64,000 bases of DNA from positions 248,001 through 312,000 of the forward strand of contig JAUXSE010000056.1 in NCBI GenBank assembly GCA_030681515.1, in the 5' to 3' direction. The DNA is from Geothrix sp. (GTDB lineage: Bacteria > Acidobacteriota > Holophagae > Holophagales > Holophagaceae). The notes under the pieces were generated by a model. The model was not told the DNA's origin. It did no database searches and saw only the letters and a program-made list of their open reading frames with translations. Positions 37,157 through 43,453 of the stretch are shown here, in pieces (positions within the stretch are counted from its first letter, which is position 1; each line of letters opens with the position of its first letter). Made by a program: the position numbers and the translations under genes.

Positions 37157-37193
37157 GGGCGGCGCATGCTCCGCGGTCTCCGCGCCCCCGCGC

Positions 37194-37231
37194 CTCCGCG
37201 TGAAAGAACCGGAAGGAGAGGTCACGCGGAG
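37194..37231. repeat. CTCCGCGTGA inverted repeat after DAHP synthase
   Basis: 10-bp perfect arms CTCCGCGTGA (37194-37203) and TCACGCGGAG (37222-37231), with further imperfect CCGCG pairing outside to about 37170-37246. Likely a terminator or dispersed palindromic repeat at the edge of the cassette block. Confidence 0.6.
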
Positions 37232-37273
37232 ACGCGGAGGCTGCGGAGATGGAAGCGCATGAATCCTAACGAC

Positions 37274-37381
37274 TCATTGAAAGCAGAAAAACGCACGAGC
37301 TTGGGCCGGTGCTTGGTAGGGATAGGGCAGCAGCAGAGGGTCCAGCCTCGCTTTGATGAGGAAGAACATCGGAAGCCGCAT
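37274..37381 (-). CDS. 35-residue ORF in terminal cassette
   Basis: ATG at 37381 with an AAGGAG ribosome site 8 bases upstream; product starts MRLPMFFLIKARLDPLL and ends FFCFQ, with TGA 3 bases before the terminal GTTAGGA core. No family recognised. It may be a genuine micro-cassette or the remnant of a longer gene whose attC has been lost. Confidence 0.35.
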   Translation of the reverse strand: MRLPMFFLIKARLDPLLLPYPYQAPAQARAFFCFQ

Positions 37382-37406
37382 GGAGGAACTCCTTCGAAAC
37401 TGTGAG

Positions 37407-37529
37407 GCCTAGCGAATGAAGCGAACCGGCCCCGCCTGCACCGAGACGATGAACGGAGCCGAGATTGCAAGATGTTGAGAGAGCGCGGAAGGCAATGCAA
37501 GGGGTCCGGCTTGAGCGGATGGCTAGGGC
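37407..37529 (-). other. attC3-like site after the toxin-antitoxin cassette
   Basis: About 123 bases between GCCTAGC (37407-37413) and GCTAGGGC (37522-37529), complementary ends with the inner GCTCAAGCCGGACCCC / GGGGCCGGTTCGCTTC arms typical of long attC sites. The core reads GCT instead of the canonical GTT, so it may be inactive. Arms closely match attC2. Confidence 0.6.
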
Positions 37530-37543
37530 TCACAGGCGGAATC

Positions 37544-37816
37544 TCACCTCTTTGCCCATTCAAGCAAGGCAAGCTGTGCGGCTTGATTCACGGACAGACC
37601 GGCTATTTGTGCTTTGCAGGAGAGCGCCTGCCAGATGCTGTCTTGGACTCGAAGAGAATGAGGGCGAGTGGGTTCTATGACCGTACCTTTAACCGGGCGA
37701 CCAGGTTTGGTGAGGCGGCCAGTGACGTGAGGGCCGAAATTCTTCTCAGCCCACGATGCTTCCTGCTCGATGTTGGCTTCGAGTTCGGCGAGGGATGGAC
37801 GCTTGCGAGCTGTCAT
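37544..37816 (-). CDS. BrnA-like antitoxin
   Basis: 90 residues. The C-terminal half (PHSLRVQDSIWQALSCKAQI, then LSVNQAAQLALLEWAK) looks like a ribbon-helix-helix DNA-binding domain; the N-terminal half is a flexible, charged toxin-binding arm. Its ATG overlaps the toxin stop by four bases, the usual brnT-brnA arrangement. Probably neutralises the toxin and represses the operon through the palindrome at 38078. Confidence 0.65.
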   Translation of the reverse strand: MTARKRPSLAELEANIEQEASWAEKNFGPHVTGRLTKPGRPVKGTVIEPTRPHSLRVQDSIWQALSCKAQIAGLSVNQAAQLALLEWAKR

Positions 37817-38061
37817 GGCGTTCTCCTTTGGCGAGATCGGATTGGAAATGCCGTGATGGGGTAAAATCCATCGTCGGTTTCTGCGAAGACCACACGGATG
37901 AGGCGACCCGTGTGGTTGGTGCCTTCACCTACGAATCGGAATGGAACCTCACTGGGGATTGAAGCCCAGTCTTCAGCGTCAAAAGCAGATTCGATATCCT
38001 CTGGCTCAAGGCCATGGTCTCGGATCTTTTCCAGGTTTCGAAGGCCCCAGAGGAGATGCAT
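37813..38061 (-). CDS. BrnT-like toxin (putative RNase)
   Basis: 82 residues. NLEKIRDHGLEPEDIESAFD followed by RLIRVVFAETDDGFYPITAF and a basic RSRQRR tail is the BrnT fold pattern (N-K-x-x-H-G, central V-hydrophobic strand, terminal Arg cluster). The family consists of ribonuclease toxins that stop translation. GGAG lies 8 bases upstream of the ATG. Similarity is judged by eye, so a related RelE-superfamily toxin is possible. Confidence 0.65.
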   Translation of the reverse strand: MHLLWGLRNLEKIRDHGLEPEDIESAFDAEDWASIPSEVPFRFVGEGTNHTGRLIRVVFAETDDGFYPITAFPIRSRQRRTP

Positions 38062-38077
38062 TTGCAGGTCTCCAGAA

Positions 38078-38094
38078 CAAATGTATCACATTTG
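38078..38094 (-). promoter_or_regulatory. palindromic operator of the toxin-antitoxin pair
   Basis: Perfect 7-bp arms CAAATGT/ACATTTG around 3 bases, 17 bases before the toxin ATG, overlapping a candidate -10 (TACATT, 38080-38085) with -35 TTGCAC at 38102-38107 (spacing 16). This is well placed for autorepression by a ribbon-helix-helix antitoxin. Confidence 0.65.
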
Positions 38095-38129
38095 ATTAGC
38101 GGTGCAAGTCCTGACCCGGGGAGTGGGGA

Positions 38130-38254
38130 ACCCAAACGAAAGCAGCCAACCGGCGCCGCCTGCACCGAGGCGCTGAGCGAAGCCGAGGGAGCGAGAAGAG
38201 GAGAGAAGGCGAAAGGCAATGCAGGCGGGGTCCGACTTGAGCGAGAGGTTAGGC
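38130..38254 (-). other. attC2-like site after the PIN-like cassette
   Basis: Minus-strand R'' GCCTAAC at 38248-38254, containing the TAA stop of the upstream gene, then CTCTCGCTCAAGTCGGACCC; the far arm GCAGGCGGCGCCGGTTGGCT ends in a degenerate R' (GTTTGGGT, 38130-38137). Inner arms CCGCCTGCA/TGCAGGCGG pair perfectly. About 125 bases, a long attC. Confidence 0.7.
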
Positions 38255-39472
38255 ATTGGCGGTGCGATCAGTGTGTAGGAGCATTTGAACTGTCTGCACC
38301 AGTAATTCAAGTTTAGAAACGACGATGGTTCCATTTTGTCGAACCTGATCTGCAATGAATGGTGCCATAAAGGAATCTGCCCGGAAAACATCGACGTATG
38401 GTGCGTACAATGCGTGAAGTGCGTCTACAACATCACTATCTTTAGGCATGCGGGACGCTTGCCCTACTGAACTCCAAATTGAAGAATGAAGCGCCCTGAG
38501 GCAGGTAGAAAAGCCCGGGCAATTTTGATCAAATTGGTTAAGGTCGATCTGTCCTCGAAAATCCGGATCGAGCTTTGTGACCACACTTGATGAAACCTTG
38601 ACCACCATTTCATCTTGGTGTTGATTCCATACTTTTTTGGTCAGTGTCCTTTGGCCTTTGGGTATGCCCAATGTTTCTTCGAATAGGACTATTTGGCTGG
38701 CTTGTTCAGTCATCCTTTTTGTGTCAGCCATAAGGGCTTTGGATGGCCCTCGTAACCAGTCAATTAATGGTGACATCTGATCGTGGTGTTGAGCGAACCA
38801 TCGCATCATCCATTTGGGATCGCGCAAACTCTCTTTAAACGCCCTGTCTGCCTCCGCTGTCGTCGTCAATCCCAACACATATTTCCATAGGACCTCAGCA
38901 TCGGAAGGTCGCATTGGGTACAAGCCCAGAAACTCATCAAGTTGTTTAGTTAGGTCATCACCGAGTATTGCTCTGACGGCTTCCTTGGTTGGTTTATTCT
39001 TTTTGAATATTTTACGCTTCAGTGTGCGGCGATGTTGCCGGTTGAGACTGTGCTTCTTCCCTGCGCTATCGACATCTTGAATGGCCTCAGCCCAATTCAC
39101 AGGAGAAATAATGTTTCCAAGATCAGGGAACCAGTCTGCATCTGATGATCGTACCGACTCTCCACCTGGCCTTTGAGTATTGATTGAAGCAAATTCAAGC
39201 GTTAGCAATCTATCAAATGATATTAGTGCATTGCGCCCACATAAATCAACGAGTAGATCTGCACGTAGACTCGCTAACGGTGTATGAACCGCTTCCATCG
39301 GTGCCATCTCTAGGAGAAGGATTCCTGAATATAGAAACTTCACTTGACCAGATTTAGACCATTCCAATAACTGATTTCGAATTTCAATGGTGCTCTCTGT
39401 CTGACAACTGGGATTAGACAGGCGAGAATAATCGCTGCTATCGAGGTAAACATGGATTGGTTGATTCGACAT
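38249..39472 (-). CDS. PIN-like domain protein, cassette-borne
   Basis: 407 residues, no named family. The start VYLDSSDYSRLS and the C-terminal DSDVVDALHALYAPYVD plus FRADSFMA give acidic residues (Asp11, Asp347, Asp350, Asp361, Asp366) in the strand-loop-helix pattern of PIN-like nucleases, separated by a long helical insert with basic patches (RQHRRTLKRKIFKKNK). Could be an RNase effector; this is inference. Codon use is far more A/T-rich than in the neighbours. Its ATG lies 12 bases from the attC1 core, with no clear ribosome site. Confidence 0.65.
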   Translation of the reverse strand: MSNQPIHVYLDSSDYSRLSNPSCQTESTIEIRNQLLEWSKSGQVKFLYSGILLLEMAPMEAVHTPLASLRADLLVDLCGRNALISFDRLLTLEFASINTQRPGGESVRSSDADWFPDLGNIISPVNWAEAIQDVDSAGKKHSLNRQHRRTLKRKIFKKNKPTKEAVRAILGDDLTKQLDEFLGLYPMRPSDAEVLWKYVLGLTTTAEADRAFKESLRDPKWMMRWFAQHHDQMSPLIDWLRGPSKALMADTKRMTEQASQIVLFEETLGIPKGQRTLTKKVWNQHQDEMVVKVSSSVVTKLDPDFRGQIDLNQFDQNCPGFSTCLRALHSSIWSSVGQASRMPKDSDVVDALHALYAPYVDVFRADSFMAPFIADQVRQNGTIVVSKLELLVQTVQMLLHTDRTANA

Positions 39473-39484
39473 TCTGGACCCAAT

Positions 39485-39547
39485 GCCTAACGTGGAGCTA
39501 AGGGGCTGCGCGCTTTTGCGCAGTCCCGCTTGAGCGCCGGGTTAGAT
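39485..39547 (-). other. attC1 site, canonical 63-base form
   Basis: Minus strand begins ATCTAAC (R'', 39541-39547) and ends GTTAGGC (R', 39485-39491), both fitting the RYYYAAC/GTTRRRY rule. Inner arms CGCTCAAGCGGGACTGCGC and GCGCAGCCCCTTAGC pair with the small asymmetry usual for attC. It starts 4 bases after the GIY-YIG stop codon and the next gene begins 12 bases after R'. Confidence 0.85.
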
Positions 39548-39551
39548 TTTT

Positions 39552-40364
39552 TCACGAGCCACCCCGCATTTTTTGCTCAATCGATCGAAGCGTATTTTGA
39601 ATTTCTCTTTCCTTCAGTTCGGGGTCAATGTCCTGAATGTATTCGATAGCAGAAAAATCATCGCCGCGCTTTCTGTTTTGCGGCGGTTCAAGCGCCTCGA
39701 TAAGCAGGGCTTCAAGTGTTGCGACAAGGCTGGCAAGTGATGTGTTGAGAGCTGTTTCTCGAAGATTGCCATCTTGAGTTACGTCGAGCAAGCCAAACCA
39801 AGAAAACCGGTTCCAGCGACTGCCCAAGCGATCAACTGTGTGTTCGAAAAGGCGCTTACCAAGCGGGCGGTCAATAGAGCGCCCGACATACACCACGGTG
39901 TGGTGGTCGTAAAGAATGTAAATACCTTTCTGTTTGCCAAAATCTACTGGCTTGGAAAGTGCCTGTTGTTTTCCATACATCTTAGGGTCGTTGCGCCACA
40001 CGACAAGATCACGTTGCCAGTACATGCCGAAGGAGTGAATGATTGAATCAGACAGCTCCACGTCCAGCTTGGCAAGAGACGCAGGTTTATTTTGATCGGC
40101 AACCGGAACTGTTGCCGGAATGATAGCTGCTGCCAGTGATCTCTTGAGTGTGAATATGCCTTTGCCAACGCGCATAAATGGCGTTTTCTCACCATCATGT
40201 TTTATCGATGCCGAAATTTGTGCGTTCACTGTTGCCGCAGGAGTTGCGCCGTCAGTCTCGTAGTAACCGCGAGATAATATTTGCTCTGATATTTCTGCGT
40301 AGTGCAGCGGGGTGTCCGACTCCCCAAGCACTTTCTTTATCGCTTCTTTCCAGGACTTCTCCAT
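39552..40364 (-). CDS. HARE-HTH / GIY-YIG nuclease-like protein, cassette-borne
   Basis: 270 residues. Residues about 4-78 match a HARE-HTH domain (WKEAIKKVLGES, HYAEISEQILSRGY, MRVGKGIFTLK), a winged module linked to restriction and modified-DNA recognition. Residues about 144-230 form a GIY-YIG nuclease: GIYIL (147-151), YVGRS (159-163), Arg171, His175, Glu218/Glu223 and PPQN (227-230). The pairing suggests a DNA endonuclease that recognises modified or chromatin-marked DNA, plausibly anti-phage. No methyltransferase neighbours it. Confidence 0.78.
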   Translation of the reverse strand: MEKSWKEAIKKVLGESDTPLHYAEISEQILSRGYYETDGATPAATVNAQISASIKHDGEKTPFMRVGKGIFTLKRSLAAAIIPATVPVADQNKPASLAKLDVELSDSIIHSFGMYWQRDLVVWRNDPKMYGKQQALSKPVDFGKQKGIYILYDHHTVVYVGRSIDRPLGKRLFEHTVDRLGSRWNRFSWFGLLDVTQDGNLRETALNTSLASLVATLEALLIEALEPPQNRKRGDDFSAIEYIQDIDPELKEREIQNTLRSIEQKMRGGS

Positions 40365-40540
40365 AATCTCTCCGAAAACCCTAACTTTGGATTAGACGGC
40401 CTGAATTCGATTTTGATAAGCCCATCATAGCGGGCAAATCAGCAAAGGGATGGACGCGGAGAGTCTACCTCCGTCCCGCCCGGCCATCGCGGTTCATTTG
40501 GGGCCGGAGGAACAGCGGCGGCGGTGGGCGGGTCCGGCGC

Positions 40541-41290
40541 CTACTGCACGGTGGGATGCACGCCTTCGGGCCCGCAGCGCAGGGCCAGGACCTCGAAGGG
40601 GACGCTGATCTGGATGGGCGTGCCCGCGGTCAGGTGCGGCAGCGGTTTCAGCCTCGGCGGGGGCAGCAGCAGGACTTCGCCTGGGCGCAGGGGTGGCAGC
40701 TCCAGGCCCTCCCAGGCCTTCAGGGGCAGGCTGCGCCGGGCGGCACCGGCCTTCAGCTCCAGGCTGCCCGTGGGCCACGCGTCCGTCATCCAGGCGCCCA
40801 GGATGGCACTCCCGGCATCTTCAAATGCCAGGCAGAACCCGGCGATGCCGCCCCCGGCCAGGCCCAGGGCCGCCAGGCCGGGCTGGGGCGGGCCCGACAG
40901 TTCCGCCCCGGGCCCCTTGACGCCAAAGCGGTCCAGATCCCCCCCGCCCAGCCGGCGCAGGGCCGCGGGCCGGGACAGGCAGGGCAGGAGATCCACCCGT
41001 TCCAGGCGCGGGGCCAGGGCCTCGGGCAGGGTGCCGCGGCGATCCCACTTTTCGGCGTAGGCCACCGTCTGCCCCGCGCGGGCCAGGGCGCGCGGCCCCC
41101 CTTCCAGCACGCGACGGAGGCTCGGGGGCACCAGCGCGTCCGCCAGCCGTTCGGGGTCGCCCTCCCCCAGCCTGCGCAGGCGGATGGCCTCGATGCGGTT
41201 CAGATCCGCCAAGCGCCCCGAGGCCAGCCGCGCCACGAGAACCCGGCGTTCAGCGGGCCCTTCGGCCCAGGCGGCGGTACCGAGCAACAT
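40541..41290 (-). CDS. hypothetical protein, possibly exported
   Basis: 249 residues from MLLGTAAWAEGPAERRVLVA; the short hydrophobic start ending AWA could be a clipped signal peptide, and a GTG eight codons upstream would lengthen it slightly. Leu/Arg/Gly/Pro-rich, no recognised domain. ATG overlaps the thioesterase stop (TGATG), so the two are translationally coupled. The frame is open far upstream through other genes on the opposite strand, which is a composition artefact. Confidence 0.6.
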   Translation of the reverse strand: MLLGTAAWAEGPAERRVLVARLASGRLADLNRIEAIRLRRLGEGDPERLADALVPPSLRRVLEGGPRALARAGQTVAYAEKWDRRGTLPEALAPRLERVDLLPCLSRPAALRRLGGGDLDRFGVKGPGAELSGPPQPGLAALGLAGGGIAGFCLAFEDAGSAILGAWMTDAWPTGSLELKAGAARRSLPLKAWEGLELPPLRPGEVLLLPPPRLKPLPHLTAGTPIQISVPFEVLALRCGPEGVHPTVQ

Positions 41291-41685
41291 CAGTCCTGGG
41301 CTTCCAGCCACTCGCGCGTGGCGGGCGCCAGGGGTTTGGGCCGATTGGTGGCGAAATCGAGCATCACCTGGACGGTCTTCCCTTCGGCGAACAGTTCGCC
41401 CCCCAGGCCCTTCGTGAGGCGGTAGCTCAGCTCGAAGGAGCTGTTGCCGACCTTGGTGCAGTGCAGTTCCACGCGGACATCGTCGCCCAGCAGGATCGGC
41501 AGGCGGTAGTCCACCTCGGCCCGGGCGATGAGGAAGCCCTCCTCCTGGAACTTCCGCCCCCCCAGGAAGCTGCGCCACCACTGGAACCGTGCCTGCTCCA
41601 TGTAGCTCACCACCACGGCGTTGTTGACGTGGCTCATGGCATCCAGATCGCTGAAGCGCACCTCGATGGGATGGGAAAAGGGCAT
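41290..41685 (-). CDS. acyl-CoA thioesterase, 4HBT hotdog family
   Basis: 131 residues from MPFSHPIEVRFSDLDAMSHV. The segment FSDLDAMSHVNNAVVVSYME is the hotdog active-site helix with the Asp and His-Val-Asn-Asn signature of 4-hydroxybenzoyl-CoA/YbgC-like thioesterases. ATG 41685 has GGAGG 4 bases upstream. Substrate unknown. Confidence 0.88.
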   Translation of the reverse strand: MPFSHPIEVRFSDLDAMSHVNNAVVVSYMEQARFQWWRSFLGGRKFQEEGFLIARAEVDYRLPILLGDDVRVELHCTKVGNSSFELSYRLTKGLGGELFAEGKTVQVMLDFATNRPKPLAPATREWLEAQD

Positions 41686-41734
41686 GGGGCCTCCGGACAC
41701 CCAACATACCCGGATCCCGTGGCATCATGCGCCG

Positions 41735-42103
41735 ATGCCCGCGCCCCTGCTCCTCGCCTACGATCCCGCCTGCACCCTCTGCTGCCGCATGGCCCTGTGG
41801 CTGGCCCGGCGGGACCGCCAGGGCAGGCTGCTCATCGTGTCCGTGCGCGATCCCGAGCTGCTCGCCCTGGCCCCGGAGTTGGCGGGAAGGCCCGTGGAGA
41901 AGGAGATCCACGGCCTGGACCTGGGCACCCGGGATATCCGCGCCGGCGCGGATCTGCTGCGCCCCATCGCCCGCCGGCTGCCGGGATGGCGGTGGCTGTC
42001 CCCGCTCCTGGGGCTGCCGGGTTTCCCCGCCTTGCTGAACCGCCTCTACCTGCGCTGGGCGACCGGCCGGTTCCGGCGCACGGGCCGCCAGCCCTTCGCG
42101 TAG
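41735..42103 (+). CDS. DCC family thiol-disulfide-like protein (DUF393)
   Basis: 122 residues. N-terminal AYDPACTLCCRMALWLARRD carries the D-x-x-C-x-x-C signature of the DCC (DUF393) thioredoxin-like family; later PIARRLPGWRWLSPLLGLPG matches the family C-terminal region. Likely a redox-active cytosolic or membrane-associated protein; partner unknown. Ends 9 bases before the CPBP protease gene. Confidence 0.8.
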   Translation: MPAPLLLAYDPACTLCCRMALWLARRDRQGRLLIVSVRDPELLALAPELAGRPVEKEIHGLDLGTRDIRAGADLLRPIARRLPGWRWLSPLLGLPGFPALLNRLYLRWATGRFRRTGRQPFA

Positions 42104-42112
42104 CCTGGATCC

Positions 42113-43453
42113 ATGACCTCTGAACCCCGGACAGCCTGGCACCCCGACCGCCGCTGGGCCGATCCCCTCATCGCCCTGCTGGCGCTGCTGGCCCTGCTGG
42201 CGGTGGGCTTCACCCTGCGCGCCCGCCAGCAGGGCGCCCGGCGCCCCTCCGAACGCGCCAGCCTCCAGGGCCGGATGACCGAGGTGGCCCTGGCGGGCCC
42301 CAGGCTGCTCAGGGGCCGGGGCGTGACGGACCAGGCGTGGGTGAAGGCCGAGGCCGAGTTGAGGGAGCCCTGGGACCGGGCCCTGCTGGCCGTGCTGAAG
42401 GCGGAACGGGACGGCCAGGCGGAGGGGCCCGCCACCTGGGTGGATGGGGCGGCCCCGACAGGGCCCGGGGGCCAGGCTTTCCGGCGCGTCTCCCTCGCAG
42501 CCTATGCCGGGGCGCCGCTGCCGGACCGCGCCACCCGCGACGAGGTCCACCGCCGCCTGGGGGATGGATACGCCGCGGACCTGCTCGAAGCCCGGCTCCG
42601 GGACCGGGAGGGCGGGGGAAATGCCCTCCGCGCCCAGGCGCGAGGGGCCCTGATGATCCGCCTGGCGGGACTCGGCCTCCTGGGCCTGGGGGTGCTGGGC
42701 CTGGCTGTGGGCGGACTCGCCGTGGGCATCTATCTGTGGGCGACCCGCGGAAGGGATCTTCCGCCCCCCCTGCCCCAGTGGTCCCTGTCCGGGCGCGCCG
42801 CCGCGCTGGTCCTGCTCGCCTGGTTCCTCGCCTTCTTCGTGGCCGGCAACCTGGCGGGCCTGCTCCTCCTTCCATGGCCCGGCCTGCGCTGGCTGGCCGT
42901 GCCCCTGGGCTACCTGCTCCACGCCACCTTCGGGCTCCGCCTCCTCTGCTGGGCGGAAGGGCTCCGTCCGGGCGCCCTTTGGCGCCGCGTGGCCCCGGGG
43001 CGGATGGGCCGGGACCTCGCCTGGGGGGCGGGTTTCCTCGCCCTGGCGGTGCTGCTGGTCATCGCCGTGGCCCTGGCCTCGAACCTGATCCTGAAACCCG
43101 ACCAGAGCCCCCAGCGCGATCTGCAGGAGCTGCTGCGCGGCCTGTCTGGCTGGGGTCCGAGCCTGATCCTGTTCCTGACCGTGGCGGGGTTGGCCCCCGC
43201 CTTCGAAGAACTGCTCTTCCGCGGCTTCCTGCTGCCGGTTCTGGCGCGGGGGCAGCGGATGACCCTGGCCCTGGTGGTTTCGGCCCTGCTCTTCGGGGCC
43301 ATCCACCTCCAGCCCGTGGGCCTGCCCACCCTGAGCACGCTCGGCTTCGTCATGGGTCTGGCCATGCGCCACACCGGCAGCCTGCGGACGCCCATCCTCG
43401 TCCATGCCTGCTGGAACGGTGGCCTCTTCCTGCTGATGCGGGCCTTCGCCTGA
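42113..43453 (+). CDS. CPBP family intramembrane metalloprotease
   Basis: 446 residues with about eight membrane segments. The C-terminal Abi/CPBP (CAAX prenyl protease-like) domain has FEELLFRGFLLPVL (EExxxR), FGAIHLQPV and HACWNGGLF (HxxxN). The N-terminal 150 residues are a soluble, charged extension following a first helix. Substrate unknown; family members process peptides or act in bacteriocin immunity. Confidence 0.87.
   Translation: MTSEPRTAWHPDRRWADPLIALLALLALLAVGFTLRARQQGARRPSERASLQGRMTEVALAGPRLLRGRGVTDQAWVKAEAELREPWDRALLAVLKAERDGQAEGPATWVDGAAPTGPGGQAFRRVSLAAYAGAPLPDRATRDEVHRRLGDGYAADLLEARLRDREGGGNALRAQARGALMIRLAGLGLLGLGVLGLAVGGLAVGIYLWATRGRDLPPPLPQWSLSGRAAALVLLAWFLAFFVAGNLAGLLLLPWPGLRWLAVPLGYLLHATFGLRLLCWAEGLRPGALWRRVAPGRMGRDLAWGAGFLALAVLLVIAVALASNLILKPDQSPQRDLQELLRGLSGWGPSLILFLTVAGLAPAFEELLFRGFLLPVLARGQRMTLALVVSALLFGAIHLQPVGLPTLSTLGFVMGLAMRHTGSLRTPILVHACWNGGLFLLMRAFA

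Follow-up and report, generated by a model that had tools for sequence, protein, structure and literature searches.

A HARE-HTH/GIY-YIG protein carried as an integron cassette in Geothrix sp.: a putative one-gene restriction-type endonuclease

The DNA considered here, a stretch of 64,000 nucleotides from Geothrix sp. (in the following, the window), harbors a short gene that was initially annotated as a HARE-HTH domain fused to a GIY-YIG nuclease, a single-gene cassette that might act as a modification-dependent restriction enzyme. The locus raises the question of whether such a reader and such a cutter are indeed combined in one chain, how the gene arrived at its present position, and which DNA, if any, its product would cut.

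Gene and domain architecture

The gene and its constituent parts are as follows.

39552-40364, minus strand: gene for the HARE-HTH/GIY-YIG protein (ORF, 270 aa; 79 homologous loci; dN/dS 0.03-0.12)
40370-40373, minus strand: ribosome-binding site GGAG (direct reading; similarly placed in many homologues)
40143-40355, minus strand: HARE-HTH winged-helix domain, a putative DNA reader (residues 4-74; PF05066, E 2.1e-15)
40053-40136, minus strand: variable linker (residues 77-104; disordered in the model; 23% mean identity among near homologues)
39624-40046, minus strand: GIY-YIG nuclease domain (residues 107-247; catalytic Y149, Y159, R171, H175, E218, N230)

The open reading frame starts with ATG, five bases downstream of the GGAG motif, and encodes an N-terminal HARE-HTH domain, a variable linker and a C-terminal GIY-YIG nuclease domain. 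The AlphaFold2 (AF2) model of the whole protein (pLDDT 80.9) shows the same layout, namely a winged helix, a disordered linker (pLDDT below 50 at residues 78-104) and a compact C-terminal domain. The NCBI label of a homologue reads 'HTH domain-containing protein' only, and searches of PADLOC, NCBIfam and PHROGs with the 270-aa protein gave no match. Searches of PDB sequences with phmmer and profiles returned a lectin only, a chance match at an RFSWFG motif that we reject as an identity.

The N-terminal assignment holds in the Pfam profile search, with 57.3 bits for residues 4-74 against a cut-off of 25.9, and PF05066 is likewise matched by all 50 homologues scanned. The AF2 model of this domain resembles winged helices, including those of the RNA polymerase (RNAP) delta subunit and of H1/H5; Foldseek alone found no significant match for it.

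For the C-terminal domain no one line of evidence is decisive, and the combined comparisons of sequences and models leave little doubt that it is a GIY-YIG nuclease. The protein itself matches GIY_YIG_2 weakly (12.9 bits, E 0.11), below the Pfam cut-off of 22.4. A full-length homologue of the same architecture (L028, 38% identical, located on the Solidesulfovibrio plasmid pDMC2) exceeds both Pfam cut-offs, with 28.1 bits for PF01541 (cut-off 22.6) at residues 136-218. In an alignment of 51 homologues, G147-I-Y149, Y159-x-G161, R171, H175, E218 and N230 are each kept in 50 or 51; checked by alignment, the misplacement of the catalytic Arg and Glu that would have refuted the initial annotation is not seen. 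Known GIY-YIG enzymes have the spacings Y-x9-Y, R-x3-H/Y and E-x11-N, as does the 270-aa protein, whose Tyr-Tyr, Arg-His and Glu-Asn distances of 10, 4 and 12 are those of UvrC. Modelled alone, the domain reaches a pLDDT of 88.1 (AF2). Foldseek alone gave no significant match for this model; a second structural aligner has UvrC, T4 EndoII, Hpy188I, I-TevI and Eco29kI among the 35 matches listed, with individually low scores for the five families (Z 2.0-4.0) and UvrC among the best GIY-YIG matches listed. Profile comparison with UvrC/YhbQ domains (hhalign) yields a probability of 80, covering the stretch from GIY to R/H only. The protein probably shares its fold class with the UvrC N-domain, T4 EndoII, Hpy188I, Eco29kI and I-TevI, but differs from them by low pairwise similarity and by an additional conserved signature, R-W-N-R-F-S-W-F-G. 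Since the homologue above cut-off, the conserved catalytic set and the structure and profile comparisons agree, the initial assignment of the C-terminus is upheld.

An integron cassette in a low-GC island

The gene lies within an inserted island that comprises the following further features.

37157-40540, no strand assigned: whole low-GC inserted island, 3.4 kb (GC about 46-57%, flanks about 70%)
40379-40410, minus strand: attI-like upstream junction with core G^TTAGGG (CGTCTAATYCAAAG^TTAGGG, found likewise ahead of the first cassette in G031)
39485-39547, minus strand: attC of the HARE-GIY-YIG cassette, 63 bp, of foreign type (cmsearch 69.6 bits, E 4.3e-14)
38249-39472, minus strand: second cassette gene, 407 aa (ORF)
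38132-38255, minus strand: attC 2, host chromosomal integron type with degenerate R' box (alignment with the C11 attCs)
37544-38061, minus strand: third cassette, BrnT-like toxin (37813-38061; PF04365) and BrnA/HicB-like partner (37544-37816)
37407-37528, minus strand: attC 3, host integron type (model search and alignment with the C11 attCs)

The attC sites were searched with a covariance model built from ten sites beside homologues; a simple palindrome scan, which gave no more matches than shuffled sequences, was discarded in its favor. The attC at 39485-39547 is one of the 10 seeds of the model, hence its own score is circular. The cassette status is supported independently, because attC arrays that are not among the seeds are found beside the homologues L032, L057, L075, L084 and L085 (cmsearch) and because the site is empty in sister genomes. 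Nearly all attC matches are oriented as the gene. As expected of an attC, the bottom strand of the site in the window folds better than the top strand (-19.7 versus -15.3 kcal/mol). The unit has a single ORF, an attC with R''/R' boxes and a bulged L''/L' hairpin, and the correct orientation. Judged from these sequence features, the gene is a genuine integron cassette whose mobility is predicted, in line with the delivery route initially proposed.

On one side of the island lies a DAHP synthase gene, on the other a small host gene. The same two flanks are 3-31 bp apart in seven sister genomes, where the site is empty; in G031, another species of the genus, the site is occupied by cassettes with host-type attCs, and the context of the G^TTAGGG core (CGTCTAATCCAAAG) recurs there before the first cassette. 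This interval between the two flanking genes (37157-40540 in the window; L175-L194) is a hotspot: some sister species have nothing there, the others cassettes or other genes, for example serine hydrolase-like and SRPBCC-like ones.

The HARE-GIY-YIG cassette is the first of three in a cluster that has no adjoining integrase and may be what is left of an old integron after loss of its integrase. A full-length IntI is encoded elsewhere in the genome (contig C11, 458 bits). A row of very uniform 124-bp attCs, at least ten in number, occupies the minus strand of the corresponding locus (G000:C11:1-7400, L110), a host chromosomal integron; the last one is about 130 bp from the contig end. While attC 2 and attC 3 are of this native type, the attC of the HARE-GIY-YIG cassette is of a different type that matches the attCs of the same gene in Acidithiobacillus (L032), a Cellvibrionaceae MAG (L031) and a Lentisphaeria MAG (L033). 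A foreign cassette was therefore added ahead of native ones.

The covariance model itself missed attC 2. Neither a family in Pfam, NCBIfam or PADLOC nor a homologue on plasmids was identified for the 407-aa protein of the second cassette; a 407-aa neighbour in L085 was considered as a relative and proved unrelated. The two-gene toxin/partner cassette has host-type attCs and belongs to a common kind of array stabiliser, with the BrnT-like protein below the cut-off of PF04365 (E 2e-4). A 954-aa ORF at 40541-43405 is probably a GC-rich artefact over genes for a small host protein, a thioesterase and a CPBP-like protease.

Distribution and selection

One genome scan yields 79 loci (109 candidate stretches) that are 40-94% identical to the 270-aa protein. 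They are assigned to Pseudomonadota, Nitrospirota, Lentisphaerota, Bacteroidota, Planctomycetota, Myxococcota, Cyanobacteriota, Chlorobiota, Verrucomicrobiota, Thermodesulfobacteriota and Rhodothermota; many loci are MAG contigs, such that some labels may be wrong. By these assignments relatives occur in at least ten phyla, and within the near clade the branching of the tree does not follow phylum. The search of 297 related genomes gave a full-length match in the window's own genome only, and no homologue was found in E. coli genomes.

Cassette boundaries recur among the near homologues. The 5' core GTTAGAY is kept in 18 of 63 (0.5 expected) and the 3' R'' box in 13 of 60 (0.4 expected); at least one significant boundary is present in 25 of 62 near homologues versus 1 of 17 far ones. 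This sole far homologue (L100, 47% identical) has its own matched cassette ends (L100:5001-5774, CGTTAGACGCTGTATAA...TTATACAGCGTCTAAC), which suggests an independent capture; there were therefore two captures or more, or an older one. One or both ends are missing from many near copies, which adjoin ordinary chromosomal genes. Many copies thus appear to have been fixed after loss of the attC, a route from mobile cassette to permanent gene.

The copies compared are under strong purifying selection, strongest on the nuclease domain, which indicates that the protein is functional. Against near homologues the dN/dS of the whole gene is 0.03-0.12 (dS from 0.4 upwards). The nuclease domain has a dN of 0.006-0.025 at a dS of 0.37-2.1, the HARE domain has a dN of 0.04-0.13, and the linker drifts; mean identities are 88% for the nuclease (residues 105-250), 77% for HARE and 23% for the linker. 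If specificity were set by the reader alone, a nuclease under tighter constraint than the reader would not be expected. Several copies (L085, L087, L088 and L089) are frameshifted, as in dispensable genes.

Genomic neighbours and host methyltransferases

Some copies have cassette neighbours related to defence, namely a TIR protein and AbiU (L032), a XamI restriction-modification system (L060) and a C5 methyltransferase (L047). Among the 130 nearest neighbours of the homologues, tallied by the commonest families listed, defence matches are a scattered minority, and the tally leads us to reject the notion of a family that always resides in defence islands. Methyltransferases occur only sporadically among the families listed, in addition to those in L047 and L060, and the island in the window encodes none; the gene is thus stand-alone in the window, as initially annotated.

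Dam-family methyltransferases above the curated cut-off are encoded in 5 of 17 carrier genomes, those of Acidithiobacillus (L032), Cyanaurora (L078), a Burkholderiales MAG (L040), Pseudoalteromonas (L105) and, marginally, the window's own genome. Methyltransferases of the 5mC (Dcm) type are encoded in 8 of the 17, with up to 11 matches in one. The coexistence of intact copies with both kinds of enzyme speaks against a trigger such as Gm6ATC or general 5mC. These are counts of methyltransferase genes, and on this basis either target appears unlikely. Should cleavage depend on a modification, the trigger would probably be something other than Gm6ATC or bulk 5mC, with hypermodified phage bases as the next guess.

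Putative function

The closest characterised enzymes, by analogy of architecture, are Ahi29725I and Apa233I of Acholeplasma, wH-GIY-YIG type IV endonucleases that cut modified DNA near Gm6ATC (PMC11037411). As in the protein described here, an N-terminal winged helix and a C-terminal GIY-YIG nuclease form one chain, and methyltransferase genes are rarely adjacent (PMC11037411). Unlike them, the present protein has a HARE-HTH reader, coexists with Dam-family enzymes and is cassette-borne; the comparison is one of descriptions and not of sequences. The winged helix of the Acholeplasma type reads 6mA in GATC, and HARE-HTH is set apart from it by an extra helix (PMC11037411). Fusions of HARE-HTH to a PD-(D/E)XK REase occur in Dnd and BREX neighbourhoods and are proposed to discriminate modified DNA (PMC10853773, PMC12839542). 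They share the HARE-HTH/nuclease fusion, but have another nuclease fold and reside within multi-gene systems, whereas the HARE-GIY-YIG gene stands alone. Integron cassettes, including those of CALINs and chromosomal integrons, are described as carriers of anti-phage genes (PMC12444791 and references there), with the same delivery of single genes by attC, some of them for defence; the HARE-GIY-YIG family is not named in the literature found on this subject. With it, the set of genes spread across phyla by integrons gains a nuclease.

We consider it probable, by a modest measure, that the gene encodes a one-gene, methyltransferase-less restriction-type DNA endonuclease disseminated in the form of an integron cassette. 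Its HARE-HTH domain would bind DNA bearing some feature that normal host DNA is without, the flexible linker would allow the GIY-YIG domain to cut nearby by its tyrosine/metal mechanism, and incoming phage or plasmid DNA would be destroyed. The two domains, the cassette evidence, the defence neighbours and the domain order shared with the wH-GIY-YIG type IV enzymes speak for this reading. Several observations speak against it: most immediate neighbours of the homologues are non-defence genes, the structural scores of the nuclease domain are individually low (Z 2-4), and the Dam-family and 5mC methyltransferases of many hosts make the simplest modification targets unlikely. The nuclease domain has also changed unusually little, whereas defence genes typically evolve fast, and a role akin to housekeeping might suit it. 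That the HARE-HTH domain of such a cassette-mobilised restriction enzyme family reads a hypermodified or otherwise unusual phage base, absent from Dam- or Dcm-type host DNA, is a tentative suggestion that may well prove wrong.

The constraint on the nuclease domain would equally suit a repair or structure-specific nuclease, in which HARE reads damaged or unusual DNA and GIY-YIG incises it, as in UvrC, Cho or Slx1, with a benefit under stress instead of phage defence. Many copies lie singly among ordinary chromosomal genes, with an Fpg glycosylase gene near one of them and topoisomerase genes near two, and the GIY-YIG structural matches listed have UvrC among the best; the patchy distribution, with the window's genome the only carrier of 297 related ones, the frequent carriage on cassettes and the frameshifted copies are typical of accessory genes, however, and we regard a repair function as unlikely. 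Coexistence with Dam and 5mC methyltransferases would pose no difficulty for a nuclease that attacks foreign DNA by sequence or topology irrespective of modification, with HARE for binding only and the host protected because it avoids the sequence, regulates the gene or expresses it at a low level. The nuclease surface is indeed better conserved than the reader, as if it had a sequence specificity of its own, but a sequence-specific cutter would harm many unrelated hosts, and neither a partner methyltransferase nor an immunity gene is consistently linked, such that this explanation seems distinctly unlikely. GIY-YIG homing enzymes such as I-TevI exist, I-TevI is among the structural matches listed, and the gene moves as a cassette; a selfish nuclease promoting insertion of its own cassette is nevertheless very improbable, given copies at unrelated sites with unrelated neighbours and insertion boundaries that are those of the integron integrase. 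It is just as hard to credit a DNA-binding regulator with a dead nuclease domain, suggested by the occurrence of HARE-HTH in the RNAP delta subunit (Pfam family and structural match), when 50 of 51 homologues retain the catalytic residues and purifying selection is strong.

In the literature found, the DNA feature recognised by bacterial HARE-HTH domains is predicted and not measured. The family described here joins reader and cutter in a single short chain encoded by one gene and comes in dozens of natural variants; it reduces the question of HARE recognition to a simple digest experiment; if HARE reads an unusual phage base, this would be the first direct test of bacterial HARE-HTH recognition.

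GIY-YIG relatives without a HARE domain also occur. The R-W-N-R-F-S-W-F-G signature is found in such relatives on IMG/VR contigs (L027), and a phage relative (L029) is annotated as 'endonuclease II'. A stand-alone relative on an IMG/VR contig (L026:4474-5055) has an attC-like site after it (E 0.035), perhaps a separate capture of the nuclease alone. Finally, a GIY-only paralogue (L074:4256-4705, 37% identical) is located just upstream of a full HARE-GIY-YIG gene.
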